From Armatimonadota bacterium (lineage in GTDB: Bacteria; Armatimonadota; UBA5829; DTJY01): a stretch of 42,442 nt of DNA. The notes beneath the pieces are model-generated. The model made no database searches, had not been told where the DNA came from, and saw only the letters and a list, made by a program, of their open reading frames with translations. Shown in pieces: positions 1,791 through 37,994 of this stretch. The stretch lies in NCBI GenBank assembly GCA_025358205.1, contig JANYKG010000072.1, forward strand, positions 1 through 42,442. The letters are read 5' to 3'. How positions within the stretch are numbered: position 1 is the first letter of the stretch; each line of letters starts with the position of its first letter. Position numbers and translations under genes: made by a program.

Positions 1791-4391
1791 ATGAGTGCCG
1801 ACAAACTCACCCCTATGCTGCGACAGTACACAGAGATCAAGCAGGAACACCCCGACGTTATCCTCATGTTTCGCCTCGGTGACTTCTACGAGATGTTTGG
1901 CGACGATGCTAAGACTGCCGCCAGAGAATTGGAAATCACGCTCACATCCCGCGACGCTGGCAAGGCCGGTAAAATGCCGATGTGCGGTGTGCCGTTTCAT
2001 GCAGTAGACCGGTATATGGCGCGCCTCATCAACAAGGGCTATCGCGTGGCGGTGTGTGACCAGGTGGAAGACGCGAAGTTGGCGAAGGGACTGGTCAAGC
2101 GTCAGGTCACCCGCGTAGTGACTCCGGGAACCGTCCTAGAAGATTCCATGCTTCAGCCGGGCAGCAACAACTACCTCGCAGCACCCGGTTACCACGATGG
2201 GACATCCGCGCTGGCTGTGGTAGACATCTCCACTGGTGAGTTCCTGATCACGGAAATCAAGGGCGAGACTGCACAGCATCGGCTGATTGATGAGATCGGG
2301 CGGCTCCTGCCTGCGGAGATACTGATACCGGAGGAGGCGGACGAGTTCACCGCTCGACTGCGAGAATCCTCAGAGGCTTTGTTCACCCCGTTTTCGCGCA
2401 ACAGCTTCATACTATCGCGTGATGTGCTGCTCAAACATTTCGGAACGGCGTCCCTGAGGGGATTCGGATGCGAGGATTTCACGGTCGGGCTTGACGCGGC
2501 GGCGGCGCTCGTCAAGTATCTTGAAGCCACACAGCCGGCAGCGCTTCAGCACATCCACACGATTTCCGCATACTCCACTGAGAGTTTCATGATGCTGGAT
2601 GCACCGGCACGCCGGAACCTAGAACTGACGCAATCTCTCTACGATGGTGTTCGCAGCAAGAGCCTGCTGAGCATCCTCGACCACACGGTGACCCCGCTAG
2701 GTGCGCGGCTTCTGCGTAAATGGCTGGATCAACCGCTGCTGGACGTGTCGGCGATTGTGTCGCGGCTGGATGCAGTGGCTGAGTTCCACCAGAACCTCCT
2801 GATTCGGTCGAAAGTGCGAGAGACCTTGGGCTGCATCTATGACTTGGAACGGTTGACGTCTCGCACGGTGACTGGGACCGCGAATCCGCGCGATCTGATT
2901 GCACTGCGCAACTCGATACGCGCGCTGCCAGCCCTGCAGAATGCGCTCGGCGTCCTGGAGAACGAGATGATTCGGGCCTTGGCCGAGCCGATGGGGTCGT
3001 TGGACCATGTCGCGGAACTGGTAGAGCTATCCATAAACGACGAACCGCCGATTCATCTTCGCGAGGGCGGATTCATCAAGACCGGTTTCAACGAGGAACT
3101 GGATGTACTTCGCGCGGCGGGCAAGAACGGCAAACAGTGGATCGCGCAGATAGAGACAAAGGAGCGCGAACGGACGGGCATTCGGACGCTGAAGGTTGGA
3201 TACAACTCCGTATTCGGCTATTACCTTGAGGTAAGCAAATCCAATCTGCCGAACGTGCCGGATGACTACATACGAAAGCAGACCACCGTCAACGGCGAGC
3301 GGTTCATCACCCCGGAGCTTAAGGAATACGAAGCGGTTGTGCTGGGCGCGGAGGAGAAATCCACACAGCTCGAGGCCGAGATATTCGTGCAGATAAGGGA
3401 GAAGATAGCGGGGGACGCGGAGAGGCTGACGGCGGCGGCGCGGGCAGTGGCGAATGTGGACGTGCTTTGCTCGCTGGCGGAGGTGGCGGCGGCGAACCGG
3501 TACACGCGCCCGGACGTGAACGCGGAAACCGAGATCGTCATCAAGAACGGTCGGCATCCCGTGGTTGAGCGGCTGCAGACGGGCGAGCTGTTTGTACCCA
3601 ACGACAGCCTGCTGGATTGCGTGGACAACCAGCTGCTTATCATCACTGGGCCGAACATGGCGGGTAAGTCTACATACTTGCGGCAGGTGGCGCTTATCGT
3701 GCTGATGGCTCAGATAGGCAGCTACGTCCCCGCTGAGTCAGCGAAGATCGGCATAGTGGACCGTATCTTCACGCGAGTGGGTGCGCATGACGAACTGTCG
3801 TCAGGGCAGAGTACCTTCATGGTGGAGATGAACGAAACCGCGAATATACTGAACAACGCGACTGATCGGAGTCTCATCATCCTTGACGAGATCGGACGAG
3901 GCACGAGTACATTCGACGGTCTGGCAATCGCGTGGGCCGTGGCGGAGTACATAAAGCAGATCGGCGCGAAGACGCTTTTCGCCACCCATTATCACCAGTT
4001 GAATGACCTGGCAGGGATGTTCCCTGGTATCCGCAACTATCGAATCGCAGTGAAGGAAGAGGGCGATCACGTGATCTGGCTGAGGAAGATCATGCCGGGC
4101 GGCACCGACCGCAGCTACGGTATCCACGTCGCCAAGCTGGCAGGATTGCCTTCCGAGGTCGTGGAAAGAGCTAAGGAAGTCCTCTGGCAGTTGGAGAGCA
4201 ACGGGGCTGCGAAGGGGATGGCCGGGAAACAAACGAAGGTGCAGGCGAGGACCGAGAAGCTGCAGTTGACTATGTTCGAGTTTGAGCCGCATCCCGTGCT
4301 TGGGGAACTGGAGCACATGGACGTCAGCACCATGACGCCCATCGAGGCGCTTACCAAGCTGTACGAGCTTCAGTTGAAGGTAAAGCAGTGA
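1791..4391 (+). CDS. mutS: DNA mismatch repair protein MutS
   Basis: Mismatch-recognition ATPase of methyl-independent mismatch repair. At 866 residues it is full length. The mismatch-reading Phe-x-Glu is F32-Y-E34 in the DFYEMFGDDA block. Connector, lever and clamp regions follow. The ABC-type ATPase has Walker A G620-PNMAGKS, Walker B and signature around D699-E700 (LDEIGRGTSTFDG), and the ATHYHQL switch histidine. The C-terminal ELQLKVKQ end is short, without the long E. coli-type tetramerisation tail. It overlaps mutL by 4 nt (GTGA), so the two are probably translationally coupled. The sequence shows every key residue of MutS1, and nothing suggests MutS2 (no Smr domain). Confidence 0.98.
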   Translation: MSADKLTPMLRQYTEIKQEHPDVILMFRLGDFYEMFGDDAKTAARELEITLTSRDAGKAGKMPMCGVPFHAVDRYMARLINKGYRVAVCDQVEDAKLAKGLVKRQVTRVVTPGTVLEDSMLQPGSNNYLAAPGYHDGTSALAVVDISTGEFLITEIKGETAQHRLIDEIGRLLPAEILIPEEADEFTARLRESSEALFTPFSRNSFILSRDVLLKHFGTASLRGFGCEDFTVGLDAAAALVKYLEATQPAALQHIHTISAYSTESFMMLDAPARRNLELTQSLYDGVRSKSLLSILDHTVTPLGARLLRKWLDQPLLDVSAIVSRLDAVAEFHQNLLIRSKVRETLGCIYDLERLTSRTVTGTANPRDLIALRNSIRALPALQNALGVLENEMIRALAEPMGSLDHVAELVELSINDEPPIHLREGGFIKTGFNEELDVLRAAGKNGKQWIAQIETKERERTGIRTLKVGYNSVFGYYLEVSKSNLPNVPDDYIRKQTTVNGERFITPELKEYEAVVLGAEEKSTQLEAEIFVQIREKIAGDAERLTAAARAVANVDVLCSLAEVAAANRYTRPDVNAETEIVIKNGRHPVVERLQTGELFVPNDSLLDCVDNQLLIITGPNMAGKSTYLRQVALIVLMAQIGSYVPAESAKIGIVDRIFTRVGAHDELSSGQSTFMVEMNETANILNNATDRSLIILDEIGRGTSTFDGLAIAWAVAEYIKQIGAKTLFATHYHQLNDLAGMFPGIRNYRIAVKEEGDHVIWLRKIMPGGTDRSYGIHVAKLAGLPSEVVERAKEVLWQLESNGAAKGMAGKQTKVQARTEKLQLTMFEFEPHPVLGELEHMDVSTMTPIEALTKLYELQLKVKQ

Positions 4392-30572: not shown

Positions 30573-33113
30573 ATGGCAAACAAAGAAGCCACATCTCGTA
30601 TCAAGATCAACAAGCTGCTCGAAGACGCAGCTTGGCGTTTCTTCGCGGAAGGAAGCTCACCCGCCAACATTAGGCTTGAACCGAGCGTCACTATCAAGTC
30701 CGCCGACCTTGACGCCCTGGGCGAAGACTTCGAAAAGACCACCAAAGGCGCGATTGACTTCCTTCTGCTTGATACCAAAAGCTTTCCGTTCATCGTACTT
30801 GAGGCCAAATCAGAGGACAAGAACCCGCTCGTTGGCAAGGAGCAGGCTCGCAAGTACGCCAAATCCCAAAACTGCCGGTTTGTCATTCTCTCAAACGGCA
30901 ATCTGCACTACTTCTGGGATCTGGAGCGCGGCAATCCCTACATGATCACGTCCTTCCCTACCCCTGATTCGGTCATTGGCTATCAACAGGTCACGCCTCA
31001 TCCGCAACGGCTCATAGATGACGAGGTCGGCGATGACTACATCGTCCTTACCCTGCGCCCCAACTACCAGTCCGAGGCCGCGTGGCGTAATGAGGCAGAA
31101 CGGCCCACCTTCGTCAGGGATAACAAACTACGCTTCCTTCGTCCATATCAGTTGAAGGCTATCCACGCGCTTCAGCGGGCTGCCAACGAAGGCAAGGACC
31201 GCTTCCTGTTCGAGATGGCTACGGGCACCGGCAAAACGCTCACCGCCGCCGCCGTCATCAAGCTCTTCCTCCGTTCCGGCAACGCCCGGCGCGTGCTGTT
31301 CCTGGTAGACCGCCTGGAGTTGGAGGATCAAGCCAAGAAGGCGTTCAAGGCGCTGCTCTCCGCCGACTTCCAGACCGTCATCTACAAGGAGAACCGGGAC
31401 GACTGGCAGCATGCGGAGATCGTCGTCACCACAGTCCAGTCGCTGCTCTTCAACAACAAGTATCAGCGCCTCTTCTCGCCGACCGATTTTGACTTGGTCA
31501 TTTCAGATGAAGCACACCGGTCTATCGGCGGCAATGCCCGCGCGGTGTTTGACTACTTCATCGGCTACAAGCTTGGACTTACCGCCACGCCGAAGGACTA
31601 TCTCAAGCGGTTCGATCACAGCAACCCAACCACCCGCGACCCGCGCGAGGCCGAGCGCCGCCTGCTCCTGGATACCTACCGCACATTCGGCTGCGAGAGC
31701 AGCGAGCCAACCTTCCGCTATTCCCTGCTTGACGGTGTTGACGCAGGCTATCTCATCAATCCCACGGTTGTGGATGCCCGCACGGACATCACCACGCAGT
31801 TGCTCTCGGATAAGGGCTACATTGCGTCATTCACTGACGAGACCGGGGAAGACACCACCGAGGTATTCCAGCAGCGCGAATACGAGAAGCGGTTCTTCGC
31901 TGATGCGACCAACCAGTTATTCTGCAAGACCTTCCTGGAAAATGCCCTGCGCGATCCCGTCAGCGGTGAAGTCGGCAAGTCCATCGTCTTCGCGGTCAGC
32001 CAGAACCACGCGGCCAAGATAGCGCAGATCCTTAATCAGATGGCAGATCGCATGTTTCCTGGCAAGTATCATTCTGACTTCGCCGTTCAGGTCACTTCGC
32101 AGATTCCCGACGCCCAGCAGTTCACCATTAACTTCGCCAATAACAACCTGCTTGGTTCGGCGAACTTCCTGCCTGCCTACAAGACCAGCAATGCGCGTAT
32201 CTGCGTCACCGTCGGCATGATGACCACCGGGTACGATTGCACGGACATACTGAATCTCGGCCTTTTCCGCCCGGTATTCTCGCCCACCGACTTTATCCAG
32301 ATCAAGGGTCGCGGCACACGTAAGCATGATTTCCTGGAGCAACTCTTCGACGATACTATTAGGGACGGCGTGCTCCAGCCGCAGAAGACCGCCTTCAAGC
32401 TCTTCGACTTCTTCGCGACCTGCGAGTTCTTCGAAGAAAAGTTCATATACGACGAAGTAATAAAACTCCCTCAACCTCGTGATAAGCGCACCGACCCCGG
32501 CCCGTATCCGCCGCCACCACCGCCCGGAGGAATGTACGAGCACAAGGGCGACGATCTCATCGCCTCGATCAGCGAAGAGGTCATCGGGCGCGAGGGGATG
32601 AAGATTGACCGCATGTTCTTCCAGAAGTTCGAAGATGTCGTGCGTGAGAACAAGATGATCGCTACGGCCGTGGAAGCCGGACAGTGGGACAAGGTCATTG
32701 ACTACGTAAACCGCGAGGTGCTCGACAAACCCGAGGAATACTACACACTTGAAAAGCTGCGCAAAGCCGCCGCCGTGGATCGCCGGCTGACGCTCCGCGA
32801 GATTCTGGAGAAGGTCTTCGGCCTCATCCCCAGCTTCAAGTCCAAAGACGAATTGCTGGAAGAGGAGTTCGCCAAGTTCGTCGCGGATTACAAACCAGGG
32901 GAAGCGCGGGACATCCCGGCCATCAAGACCTACTTCAAGGCCTACGTCACAAACGACATGGTGCGCCACATCATCGAAACCGGCAGCTTCACCGATCTCG
33001 CCACTAACGCATCCTTTACCACCCGCGATTACCGCGCTGTGCCGGAGAAGTACCGAACCCTCATACCGAACTACGTCAAGGACTATGTGCAGTTAAACCA
33101 GTTTGTCTCATGA
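30573..33113 (+). CDS. hsdR: Type I restriction enzyme subunit R (HsdR)
   Basis: Motor and nuclease subunit, 846 residues. The N-terminal HSDR_N nuclease has D62 (AIDFLL) and E77-A-K79 (VLEAKSE), a PD-(D/E)xK site. The helicase follows: Walker A TGTGKT with K221, DEAH box D312-E-A-H, GLTATPK, and motif VI QIKGRGTRK. A proline-rich stretch (PGPYPPPPPPGG) near residue 645 separates a C-terminal assembly domain. GTGGAG about 10 nt upstream suits the ATG. It is intact. Its partners downstream on the same strand are a four-helix-bundle gene and a damaged modification/specificity gene, so restriction without matching specificity may be silent. Confidence 0.95.
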   Translation: MANKEATSRIKINKLLEDAAWRFFAEGSSPANIRLEPSVTIKSADLDALGEDFEKTTKGAIDFLLLDTKSFPFIVLEAKSEDKNPLVGKEQARKYAKSQNCRFVILSNGNLHYFWDLERGNPYMITSFPTPDSVIGYQQVTPHPQRLIDDEVGDDYIVLTLRPNYQSEAAWRNEAERPTFVRDNKLRFLRPYQLKAIHALQRAANEGKDRFLFEMATGTGKTLTAAAVIKLFLRSGNARRVLFLVDRLELEDQAKKAFKALLSADFQTVIYKENRDDWQHAEIVVTTVQSLLFNNKYQRLFSPTDFDLVISDEAHRSIGGNARAVFDYFIGYKLGLTATPKDYLKRFDHSNPTTRDPREAERRLLLDTYRTFGCESSEPTFRYSLLDGVDAGYLINPTVVDARTDITTQLLSDKGYIASFTDETGEDTTEVFQQREYEKRFFADATNQLFCKTFLENALRDPVSGEVGKSIVFAVSQNHAAKIAQILNQMADRMFPGKYHSDFAVQVTSQIPDAQQFTINFANNNLLGSANFLPAYKTSNARICVTVGMMTTGYDCTDILNLGLFRPVFSPTDFIQIKGRGTRKHDFLEQLFDDTIRDGVLQPQKTAFKLFDFFATCEFFEEKFIYDEVIKLPQPRDKRTDPGPYPPPPPPGGMYEHKGDDLIASISEEVIGREGMKIDRMFFQKFEDVVRENKMIATAVEAGQWDKVIDYVNREVLDKPEEYYTLEKLRKAAAVDRRLTLREILEKVFGLIPSFKSKDELLEEEFAKFVADYKPGEARDIPAIKTYFKAYVTNDMVRHIIETGSFTDLATNASFTTRDYRAVPEKYRTLIPNYVKDYVQLNQFVS

Positions 33114-33125
33114 AGGAACGAAGAA

Positions 33126-33758
33126 ATGACAGCCGGCGAACCGCTGATACCGAAACACGGTGGATACCGCAAGCTGAAGAGCTTTCAGTTGGCGCAACTG
33201 GTCTATGACATGACCGTCCGCTTCTGCGACAGTTACGTGGAAAAACGCAGCCGAACTCATGATCAAATGGTGCAGGCGGCGCGGTCCGGCGTGCAGAACA
33301 TAGCAGAAGGAAGTCAGGCCTCGGGAACCTCCAGGAAGATGGAGATCAAGCTCACCAACGTGGCGAGGGCTAGTCTCGAAGAACTTCGGCTTGACTACGA
33401 GGATTTTCTGCGACAGCGCGGACTCCCGCTCTGGGATCGGGATGATATCCGCAGGCAAAGACTTATAGACCGCAGGTGCGCTACCATGGAGGAAGTTGCT
33501 CAGTGGGTGCGCGAAGAACATGGACAGAGTAGACCAAGTGGACCGGGTGGACAGGCCACGTTCCCGGAGATTGCCGCCAATGCCGCGCTGGCGCTGCTTA
33601 ACGTAGCGTGCAGTCTGCTGGACAGACAGATAGCCACCCAGGCCAAGGCCTTCGAGACGGAAGGCGGTTTCACCGAGCGCCTCTACCGCATCCGCTCGGA
33701 GAACCGCGCGTTTCGCTCCACTCAGTCCAAACCGTCCACCAAGTCCACCGAAGAATAG
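33126..33758 (+). CDS. Four-helix-bundle protein (S23/IVP type) inside the restriction operon
   Basis: A 210-residue protein. Residues about 18-115 match the four-helix-bundle family first seen as intervening-sequence proteins of 23S rRNA: SFQLAQLVYDMTVRFCD, then VQNIAEGS and the KMEIKLTNVARASLEEL helix. A second helical part (about 140-190, AANAALALLNVACSLLDRQIATQA) is a suffix domain. The two are joined by a short linker made of 9-bp DNA repeats. It starts 12 nt after hsdR (AAGGA upstream) and ends 9 nt before the modification gene, so it is part of that transcript. Relatives also accompany diversity-generating retroelements, but no reverse transcriptase is present. The function in this setting is unknown. 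Confidence 0.85.
   Translation: MTAGEPLIPKHGGYRKLKSFQLAQLVYDMTVRFCDSYVEKRSRTHDQMVQAARSGVQNIAEGSQASGTSRKMEIKLTNVARASLEELRLDYEDFLRQRGLPLWDRDDIRRQRLIDRRCATMEEVAQWVREEHGQSRPSGPGGQATFPEIAANAALALLNVACSLLDRQIATQAKAFETEGGFTERLYRIRSENRAFRSTQSKPSTKSTEE
33521..33556 (+). repeat. 9-bp tandem repeat TGGACNNNG, four units
   Basis: Units TGGACAGAG, TAGACCAAG, TGGACCGGG and TGGACAGGC stand head to tail. They encode a flexible linker (GQS-RPS-GPG-GQA) between the two helical parts of the four-helix-bundle protein. Confidence 0.75.
33721..33747 (+). repeat. 9-bp tandem repeat NNNNGTCCA, three units
   Basis: Units CTCAGTCCA, AACCGTCCA and CCAAGTCCA, the reverse complement of the repeat at 33521. They encode the C-terminal tail STQSKPSTKSTEE of the four-helix-bundle protein. 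Confidence 0.7.
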
Positions 33759-33767
33759 GAAGTTGCA

Positions 33768-35510
33768 TTGCTGAACACTGACACCAGACGCCGCATAGAT
33801 ACCGCCAGGGATATCCTTGTCGGCAAAGTGCCCGATCCCAAGAGCCAGGTGGAGCAGATCACCATCGCCCTGATCTACAAGTTTATGGACGATATGGACG
33901 CGGAGAGCGAGGAGTTGGGCGGCAAGCGTAAGTTCTTCGCGGGTGAGTTCCAGCGCTACGGCTGGGCAAAGCTCATGCGGTCAGGTCTGGGCGGCCATGA
34001 AACGCTGAACCTCTATGCAGAGGCCATCGCCAAGATGCCGGAGAACCCCGGCATTCCCCTGCTCTTCCGCAACATCTTCAAGAATGCCTTTCTACCCTAC
34101 CGCGATCCCGAAACGCTGAAGATGTTTCTCAAGGTCATTGACGAGTTCAACTACGATCACAGCGAGAAGCTGGGCGATGCCTTCGAATATCTGCTCTCTG
34201 TACTGGGCAGCCAGGGCGATGCCGGGCAGTTCCGCACTCCTCGGCACATCATTGATTTCATGGTAGAGGTTATTGACCCCAAGAAGACGGAGTCCGTGCT
34301 TGACCCGGCCTGCGGGACTGCCGGATTCCTCATCTCTGCCTACAAGCATATCCTGAAGACAAACACCGCTGAGTCCGTCTCCACTCTCACCCCTGATGAG
34401 CGGGGCCGTCTGGCAAAGAACTTCCACGGCTACGATATCTCGCCGGACATGGTGCGCCTCTCTCTGGTGAATATGTATCTCCACGGATTTGCTGACCCGC
34501 ATATCTATGAGTACGACACTCTTTCCAGTCAGGACCGATGGAACGATTACGCGGATGTCATCCTCGCCAATCCGCCGTTTATGTCGCCGAAGGGGGGCAT
34601 CGTGCCCCACAAGCGCTTCTCGGTCCAGAGCAAGCGGAGCGAGGTGCTCTTTGTGGACTACATGGCGGAGCATCTTAAGCCGAACGGACGAGCTGCGATC
34701 ATTGTGCCGGAGGGGATCATCTTCCAAAGCCAGACCGCATACAAACAACTGCGGAAGATGCTGGTGGAGGAGTATCTGGTGGCGGTTGTCTCGCTGCCTG
34801 CGGGTGTGTTCAATCCTTACTCAGGTGTGAAGACTTCTATTCTGATTCTGGACAAGTCTCTGGCGAAGAGGACCGACTCGATAGCGTTCTACAAGGTGGA
34901 GAATGACGGCTTTGGCCTGGGCGCGCAGAGGCGGGAGATAGACAAGAACGACCTCCCCGCCGCCACCGCATTCCTAAAGTCGTATATGATCTCCCTCCCG
35001 TCCACCCTGTCCACAGAGACTCCCTCAGCCCTGATTGTCCCAAAGACCAAGCTCGCCGCAAACGGCGACTACAACCTAAGCGGAGAACGCTACCGGGAGA
35101 ATGGGCAGCGATCATCTCAGTACCCGCATGTACTTCTAGGTGAAGTGGTGGAGATTCTCGATTCATTGCGACGACCTATCACAAAGCACGACAGAAACTC
35201 TGGCCCTTATCCATATTACGGGGCAACGGGAATTTTGGATCATGTAGAAGGTTACCTATTCGATGAACCACTTGTTCTCGTTGGCGAAGATGGAGCAAAA
35301 TGGCAGGCAAGTGATAAGACTGCATTCTCTGTGGAAGGAAAAGTCTGGGTTAACAACCATGCCCATGTGTTAAGGCCCAAACGCACCAGGCTTTTGGATC
35401 GCTATTTAATCGAAATCCTCAACGAGGCCGATGGAGGTGCAGAAGGAAATCGTCGGGGAGATCGAGGGCTATCAGAAAGTCATAGACGGCGCCCGCACCG
35501 TGGTGGATAA
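33768..35510 (+). CDS. hsdM: HsdM-HsdS fusion, specificity half truncated by frameshift
   Basis: Residues 1-447 form a complete N6-adenine methyltransferase of the HsdM kind: motif I D179-PACGTAGF, the catalytic N268-PPF (ILANPPFMS), and the N-terminal helical domain. A type I specificity domain starts at about 452 (YPHVLLGEVVEIL, then YPYYGATGI, LVGEDGA and KVWVNNHAHVLRP), so modification and specificity are fused. After LIEILNEAD (D555) the frame changes and the last 25 residues are nonsense-like. The missing specificity sequence continues at 35431 in another frame. The start is TTG 33768 with AGGA 7 nt upstream. The methylase core looks intact; target recognition does not. Confidence 0.88.
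   Translation: MLNTDTRRRIDTARDILVGKVPDPKSQVEQITIALIYKFMDDMDAESEELGGKRKFFAGEFQRYGWAKLMRSGLGGHETLNLYAEAIAKMPENPGIPLLFRNIFKNAFLPYRDPETLKMFLKVIDEFNYDHSEKLGDAFEYLLSVLGSQGDAGQFRTPRHIIDFMVEVIDPKKTESVLDPACGTAGFLISAYKHILKTNTAESVSTLTPDERGRLAKNFHGYDISPDMVRLSLVNMYLHGFADPHIYEYDTLSSQDRWNDYADVILANPPFMSPKGGIVPHKRFSVQSKRSEVLFVDYMAEHLKPNGRAAIIVPEGIIFQSQTAYKQLRKMLVEEYLVAVVSLPAGVFNPYSGVKTSILILDKSLAKRTDSIAFYKVENDGFGLGAQRREIDKNDLPAATAFLKSYMISLPSTLSTETPSALIVPKTKLAANGDYNLSGERYRENGQRSSQYPHVLLGEVVEILDSLRRPITKHDRNSGPYPYYGATGILDHVEGYLFDEPLVLVGEDGAKWQASDKTAFSVEGKVWVNNHAHVLRPKRTRLLDRYLIEILNEADGGAEGNRRGDRGLSESHRRRPHRGG
34996..35013 (+). repeat. 9-bp repeat NNNNGTCCA, two units
   Basis: TCCCGTCCA and CCCTGTCCA inside the HsdM coding region, matching the repeats in the neighbouring four-helix-bundle gene. 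They encode part of the linker SLPSTLSTET ahead of the C-terminal methylase/specificity junction. Confidence 0.55.
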
Positions 35511-36138
35511 CTACCGTCCCCACATCTCCATTGACCCCTCCTGGCCGATGGTAGAGCTGGGAGAGATATGCCTGTTCAAACGCGGACCATTCGGGGGTAG
35601 CCTAAAAAAGGAAGTATTCGTGAAGAAAGGTTATGCTGTTTATGAGCAGGGCCACGCAATCTCAAATGACTTCGGCTCTTTCCGATACTTCATTGATGGG
35701 GATAAGTACAAAGAGATGAGGGGGTTTGCGGCCCTGCCGGGAGATATCATCATGTCTTGCTCAGGAACGATGGGGCGTACCGCCATCCTTCCTGAAGACG
35801 CGCCGCAAGGTGTCATCAACCAAGCATTGCTGAGACTCAGAGTTACTGAGCAGCTACTGGTCCAATTCCTCAAGCTGTGGATGGACAGCGTGAGCTTTCT
35901 GGATGCCATTGAGAGTGTGGCGTTCGGTGCGGCAATAAGAAACGTTGCTTCGGTGGACATACTCAAAAGACTGCAGTTACCCCTTCCACCACTCTCCACA
36001 CAGCAATCCATCGTCGCGGAGATCGAGGCTGAGCAGGCGCTGGTGAATGCCAACCGCGAACTGATATCCCGAATGGAAAAGAAGATTCAGGCAACCCTCG
36101 CCCGCGTCTGGGGAGACAACCAGCCGGCGGAGACCTGA
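35431..36138 (+). CDS. hsdS: HsdS C-terminal fragment (second target recognition domain)
   Basis: The reading continues the specificity half of the broken fusion. It begins with the coiled-coil spacer EVQKEIVGEIEGYQKVIDGA, then the second target recognition domain (WPMVELGEICLFKRGPFGGS, GDIIMSCSGTMGRTAI, NQALLRLRV) and the second spacer LPLPPLSTQQSIVAEIEAEQ. Within HsdS, the conserved block before PPL-x-x-Q-K spans about 34 residues in this half; the equivalent in the first half is missing. GAGG sits only 3 nt before the ATG, so independent translation would be poor. A separate half-subunit able to dimerise with the fused part remains possible. The stop is at 36138. Confidence 0.8.
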   Translation: MEVQKEIVGEIEGYQKVIDGARTVVDNYRPHISIDPSWPMVELGEICLFKRGPFGGSLKKEVFVKKGYAVYEQGHAISNDFGSFRYFIDGDKYKEMRGFAALPGDIIMSCSGTMGRTAILPEDAPQGVINQALLRLRVTEQLLVQFLKLWMDSVSFLDAIESVAFGAAIRNVASVDILKRLQLPLPPLSTQQSIVAEIEAEQALVNANRELISRMEKKIQATLARVWGDNQPAET

Positions 36139-36227
36139 CCGTGGAGTCGTCTTTCCGGCCCCTCACCCCAGTCGTGAGAAAAGGGACCCTTCTGCTACAG
36201 GTCAAGGTGGGGAGTAGAAAGTCAAAA

Positions 36228-36251
36228 GGGAGCCTGGTTTCCCAGACTCCC
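36228..36251 (-). terminator. Intrinsic terminator of groES-groEL
   Basis: On the minus strand GGGAGTCTGG, a GAAA loop, CCAGGCTCCC (one mismatch), then TTTT. It lies about 75 nt past the groEL stop. It could also stop the restriction operon from the other side. Confidence 0.7.
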
Positions 36252-36270
36252 CCTCTGTTTCTGTTCCTTT

Positions 36271-36312
36271 GTTGGAAGTTGGGAGTTGAACGTTGGACGT
36301 TCGACGTTCGTT
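36271..36312. repeat. 7-bp tandem repeat GTTNNAN, six units
   Basis: GTTGGAA, GTTGGGA, GTTGAAC, GTTGGAC, GTTCGAC and GTTCGTT in tandem, between the groEL terminator and the groEL stop codon. It forms the C-R-V-E-R-W-T-F-D-V-R-S type of translated pattern often met in uncultured bacterial genomes. Confidence 0.7.
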
Positions 36313-36323
36313 CCCGCCGCCTT

Positions 36324-37994
<1,671 letters not shown>

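Follow-up and report, generated by a model that had tools for sequence, protein, structure and literature searches.

The fused HsdM-HsdS gene of a type I restriction-modification operon in an Armatimonadota bacterium is broken within its first recognition domain (TRD1). The explanation that we consider probable is a real and fairly recent deletion that spans the end of this domain, takes out about 83 bp and shifts the frame; it would have removed methylation and restriction together while leaving HsdR open. The DNA analysed, hereafter the window, is a stretch of 42,442 bases (C93:1-42442) from a 4.08 Mb draft assembly in 200 contigs. On its + strand, the genes follow each other in the order HsdR, four-helix-bundle gene and HsdM-HsdS fusion, with the following features:

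30573..33113, + strand: HsdR, 846 aa, a single open frame that aligns with its relatives over 1-845
33126..33758, + strand: four-helix-bundle protein with a suffix domain, between HsdR and HsdM-S (Pfam 23S_rRNA_IVP; NCBIfam TIGR02436, TIGR04258)
33768..35120, + strand: HsdM part (N6-adenine methyltransferase), open, with NPPF visible in the translation
35121..35432, + strand: TRD1, which stops short at residue 555 (GC 46% vs 57% in HsdM)
35428..35538, + strand: CR1, the central conserved (dimerisation) helix region
35430..35433, + strand: deletion junction, where the last codon of TRD1 shares bases with the ATG that opens the second frame
35431..36138, + strand: second open frame, 235 aa, CR1 helix - TRD2 - CR2 helix, with the predicted fold of a complete half-S
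35433..35510, + strand: out-of-frame tail of 25 codons and then a stop (35508-35510)
35542..36024, + strand: TRD2, a Pfam Methylase_S match above cut-off
35980..36123, + strand: CR2, the C-terminal conserved helix region

The operon is a type I restriction-modification system with a natural HsdM-HsdS fusion, in the 'Type IMS' architecture in which HsdR is separate and M is joined to two TRDs. The original prediction of such a fusion is supported, and its statement that the methylase core and HsdR are intact agrees with the two open frames. The identity of HsdM is given by PF02384 (1.8e-52) and PADLOC MTase_I (1.3e-104). In HsdR, the nuclease and helicase domains are both present (ResIII and HSDR_N_2, above cut-off in the profile search), and the translation shows MATGTGKT, DEAH and an E-x-K segment. 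The name 'Type IMS' belongs, in Roberts et al. 2012 (PMC3510504), to the engineered and intact EcoKI MSFusion, in which HsdM is likewise joined to a two-TRD HsdS and HsdR is separate. In contrast to that protein, the fusion of the window is natural and is broken at the end of TRD1; therefore, the locus does not count as an intact Type IMS system, M and S sharing a continuous frame only into TRD1. Similarly, no single chain carries two complete TRDs, as TRD1 is about 27 residues short and the frame changes.

Each of the two type I operons found in the genome carries a four-helix-bundle gene with the TIGR04258 suffix, one at 33126-33758 (order R-FH-MS, with FH the four-helix-bundle gene) and one at C58:7315-7923 (L144; order M-S-FH-R), and among the 83 relatives surveyed below, 11 have such a gene between R and MS. 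It was found at 20 places in 101 genomes, 6 of them beside type I genes and 14 not, where type I genes were recognised with profiles that derive from this single family and can miss other type I families, and where some of the contigs are short. Among the papers listed by literature searches, none was seen to name a link between this suffix gene and type I systems. It is possible that the gene is an accessory gene of these systems.

The M-S frame is open over 33768-35510 (580 codons, TTG start) and agrees with its relatives through residue 555 (base 35432), inside TRD1, where it ends in ...YLIEILNEAD. The partner frame (+1) is open over 35410-36138; its ATG at 35431, preceded by GAGG, reads MEVQKEIVGEIEGYQ, the start of the second frame at this position being MEVQKEIVGEIEGYQKVIDGAR. 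Pfam Methylase_S detects both halves; of its 168 profile positions, the match in TRD1 ends as early as position 102, and that in TRD2 at position 149. The GC content of TRD1 (35121-35420) is 46%, against 57% in HsdM and CR1, which fits an imported recognition domain.

The size of the loss was measured against relatives. Twenty of these align as far as the end of TRD1, and the start of CR1 could be placed in 18; L033, with one TRD, and L019, with an unfused S, were left out of the spacing measurement, and as L006 and L068 have identical sequences, 17 distinct relatives were counted. The spacing from TRD1 to CR1 is 27 residues in twelve of them, 28 in one, 30 in three and 32 in one, and it is 0 in the window. 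Several of the 17 have another TRD1 type, and the 27-residue group is therefore the closer comparison. In the S part of the intact relative L026, residues 5-111 match 35112-35432 and residues 137-191 match 35425-35586, so that 25 residues are unmatched and two further ones are matched only within the small overlap. Judged by these alignments, the loss amounts to about 83 bases plus the frame, relative to the measured relatives.

The original prediction, that the loss comprises some 30 codons together with a shift of frame and not a single base, is borne out by the 27-32 residues found in 17 of 17 relatives. It had estimated 34 residues from the second half of the gene; the gap itself stands, and the value is a little high. 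A similarly short junction in homologues, which had been set beforehand as evidence to the contrary, occurs in 0 of the 17 distinct measured relatives. Nor was a junction like that of the window found by the protein search of 101 genomes, by the DNA search of 291 genomes of the phylum (12 matched, and stretches of six were inspected) or in the best 80 loci of the genome-contig collection.

Predicted structures indicate what was lost. In the model of the L026 S part (mean pLDDT 84, pTM 0.73), read together with the alignment, the missing residues correspond to 108-134, which hold the ITGVTVPKLN loop, a helix (122-126), a strand (129-131) and the PLPP linker, with the CR1 helix (135-161) following directly. 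As the last small helix and the last strand are missing, TRD1 would be left unfinished. On the other hand, structure prediction gives the second half the fold of a complete helix-TRD-helix half-subunit. Its model (mean pLDDT 84, pTM 0.75) consists of a helix (2-27), the TRD and a second helix (188-228), and Foldseek matched it to PacII S (7vru_C), 1yf2 and the HsdS of T. tengcongensis (3okg), with E-values from 8e-12 to 7e-11. Against solved S subunits, the TM-scores by query length were 0.58-0.66, the best match having an E-value of 8.1e-12 and a TM-score of 0.66.

To place this break among related systems, we surveyed the best 80 loci from the genome-contig scan together with L006-L009 and L019 from the 101-genome protein search; the more distant L010-L018 and L020-L024 from the latter search were left out. 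L019 has no related M part and L006 duplicates L068; the survey thus covers the window and 83 distinct relatives that have an M part. This set is biased towards good matches, and decay is therefore understated in it. M, CR1 and CR2 lie in a single frame in 70 of the 83 relatives, which is not the case in the window. Six of the 83 are one-TRD M-S fusions in one frame (L033, L045, L049, L059, L101 and L102), four have a broken M-S (L008, L031, L062 and L097), L058 ends after CR1, and L046 and L093 run off their contigs. HsdR is intact in one frame in 65 of the 83, partial in eight, interrupted in five and not found in five. With HsdR interrupted in five and M-S broken in four of the 83, decay is a common fate of this operon.

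Several of these loci show further rearrangements. In L031 (7526-7732), another out-of-frame loss joins a TRD directly to the middle part of CR2, which lies in another frame. The single helix of L033, L049 and L101 resembles CR1 at its beginning and CR2 at its end when compared by eye, as would be expected if one TRD had been removed by recombination between these two regions. In L025, L045, L054, L057, L085 and L098, extra CR2-like fragments lie outside the M-S frame and are possible remnants of further S cassettes. Finally, a plasmid search listed 3072 records, 19 of which cover at least 80% of the query, with a best identity of 65.8% among the eight matches inspected.

Within the phylum, five of the fusions examined are intact (G095, G099, G017, G114 and G238), five are frame-broken and two are remnants; this count omits G239, a 58-base match, and G058, which is unfused. 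The frame-broken ones are the window, G116 (L154), G113 (L157, the same as L097), G199 (L158, broken near M residue 42) and G070 (L008). Of the remnants, G115 (L155) retains parts of S but no M within the 9.4 kb examined, and G087 (L136) holds only the first 35 M residues, on a 4.5 kb contig. In three of the loci with a broken M-S, namely the window, G116 and G199, HsdR is nevertheless a single open frame. The TRD1 of L154 (G116:C133:35000-44500) is of the same type as that of the window, with 75% identity over 104 residues; there, at 3384-3553, the full stretch is present and a separate small frame break lies between TRD1 and CR1, just before CR1. A hot spot at the boundary between TRD1 and CR1 was considered; of some ten fusions seen to be broken or reduced, two (the window and L154) break at this boundary, which we judged too few for such a claim. 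Breakage of the fusion is thus common in the phylum, either as a biological feature or as a trait of such drafts.

A deletion that inactivates the system is the explanation that best accounts for these observations. Its main product would be M followed by an unfinished TRD1 and a nonsense tail of 25 residues, which would be unable to hold two DNA half-sites. HsdR is inactive without the M-S core, and HsdR alone is harmless. Because HsdR cannot act without this core, methylation and restriction would vanish together, and because restriction would not outlive modification, such a one-step loss would be safe for the cell. Everything else in the operon is still open, which suggests that the loss is recent. 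Three observations count against this explanation: the second frame remains open and conserved and starts, by chance or not, with an ATG; no other damage is seen in the operon, where some would be expected in an old pseudogene; and the high share of broken fusions in drafts of the phylum also fits assembly trouble.

The last of these leads to the chief rival, an artefact of assembly or consensus at a hypervariable locus, in which the TRD1 variants of two strains were misjoined and the fusion is intact in the cell. The draft state of the assembly, in 200 contigs, is compatible with it, as are the frequent broken and remnant fusions among the drafts of the phylum and the position of the junction where a TRD of low GC content (46% vs 57%) ends, in the region in which strains differ most. 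However, in the sequence as it stands, no listed repeat of at least 14 nt that an assembler could have collapsed is common to both sides of the junction. In addition, the neighbouring frames are full-length (by eye, GroEL, GroES, TpiA, Pgk and Gap), and a loss of 83 bases would be unusual as a sequencing error. We regard an artefact as unlikely.

Another possibility is that the second frame is made separately as a half-S that dimerises and, with the truncated M chain, methylates and restricts a palindromic bipartite site of two TRD2 half-sites. The model of this frame, which is predicted to fold as helix-TRD-helix and matches S subunits, is in line with this, as is a stretch of 19 nt that recurs, with 95% identity, in both conserved regions (CR1 and CR2) of the broken gene. 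The one-TRD M-S fusions listed above show that such reduced forms occur naturally in the same family. NgoAV is a known example of a split S gene, and according to a 2013 review (PMC3874165) one-TRD halves, as in NgoAV and in the truncated S of EcoDXXI and EcoR124I, can dimerise, the EcoDXXI S with only the C-terminal TRD functioning as a homodimer. The S gene of the window is in pieces as in these systems; nevertheless, the first TRD of NgoAV is complete and used in that account, whereas the first TRD of the window is unfinished and only its second half is complete. Engineered M-half-S fusions are also active in PMC6158711, where SauSTORF499P illustrates that M-S chains with a single TRD can work in dimeric form; that fusion is engineered and in one frame, whereas the M chain of the window ends in an incomplete TRD.

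Several observations weigh against such a half-S. Its ATG lies about 80 nt upstream of the stop of the overlapping frame and, being inside a translated frame, would be crossed by ribosomes. The position of this ATG is a leucine in 16 of 16 aligned relatives, so that the start codon seems to have arisen from the join itself, and L154, the other relative broken at the same boundary, has no ATG there. The M product would be burdened by the unfinished TRD1, and in the 2013 review, homodimerising S halves are known only from type IC (PMC3874165). The original prediction had allowed for two half-subunits that re-form by dimerisation: this is conceivable for the second half, which is predicted to be complete, and fails for the first, which is without the terminal helix, the last strand and the dimerisation helix. 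A working half-S is improbable in our assessment. Less probable still is the fuller version in which the deletion made a two-gene system in one step, the start created by the junction yielding a self-pairing half-S that docks on the truncated M and shifts the specificity from asymmetric to palindromic.

The suggestion that the system is phase-variable found no support. No homopolymer of more than 4 bases occurs in 35380-35520, the longest being two runs of 4, and no tandem repeats lie within 33000-36270; three weak repeat arrays sit at 36271-36375. In the genome itself, Methylase_S matches twice at this locus and twice within a single further S gene, which lies on contig C58. The latter was considered as a spare cassette and rejected, as it is part of another operon (M-S-four-helix-R), the M of which has 31% identity. 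With profile, DNA and L026 S part queries, no second S copy or spare half-gene for this system was found in the draft assembly, nor a silent or inverted one, a copy in an assembly gap being conceivable. Phase variation is therefore not supported by the draft, which contains neither a repeat tract nor a second locus. A programmed or phase-variable frameshift connecting the two frames, both of which are open over 35410-35507 (about 100 nt), is hardly credible and was rejected, as the junction has no long slippery run and no tandem repeat, the joined product would still be 27 residues short of a full TRD1, and the 17 measured relatives do without any shift.

Taken together, our results show that the decay of such fusions is ordinary in the phylum and that the window presents nothing categorically new. 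If the inactivating deletion is the right reading, this locus is one more decayed restriction system, in which a fused M-S gene would have lost both activities safely in one event. If instead the second half is used, it would be a case of specificity changed by a single deletion in nature, within the M-S fusion family.
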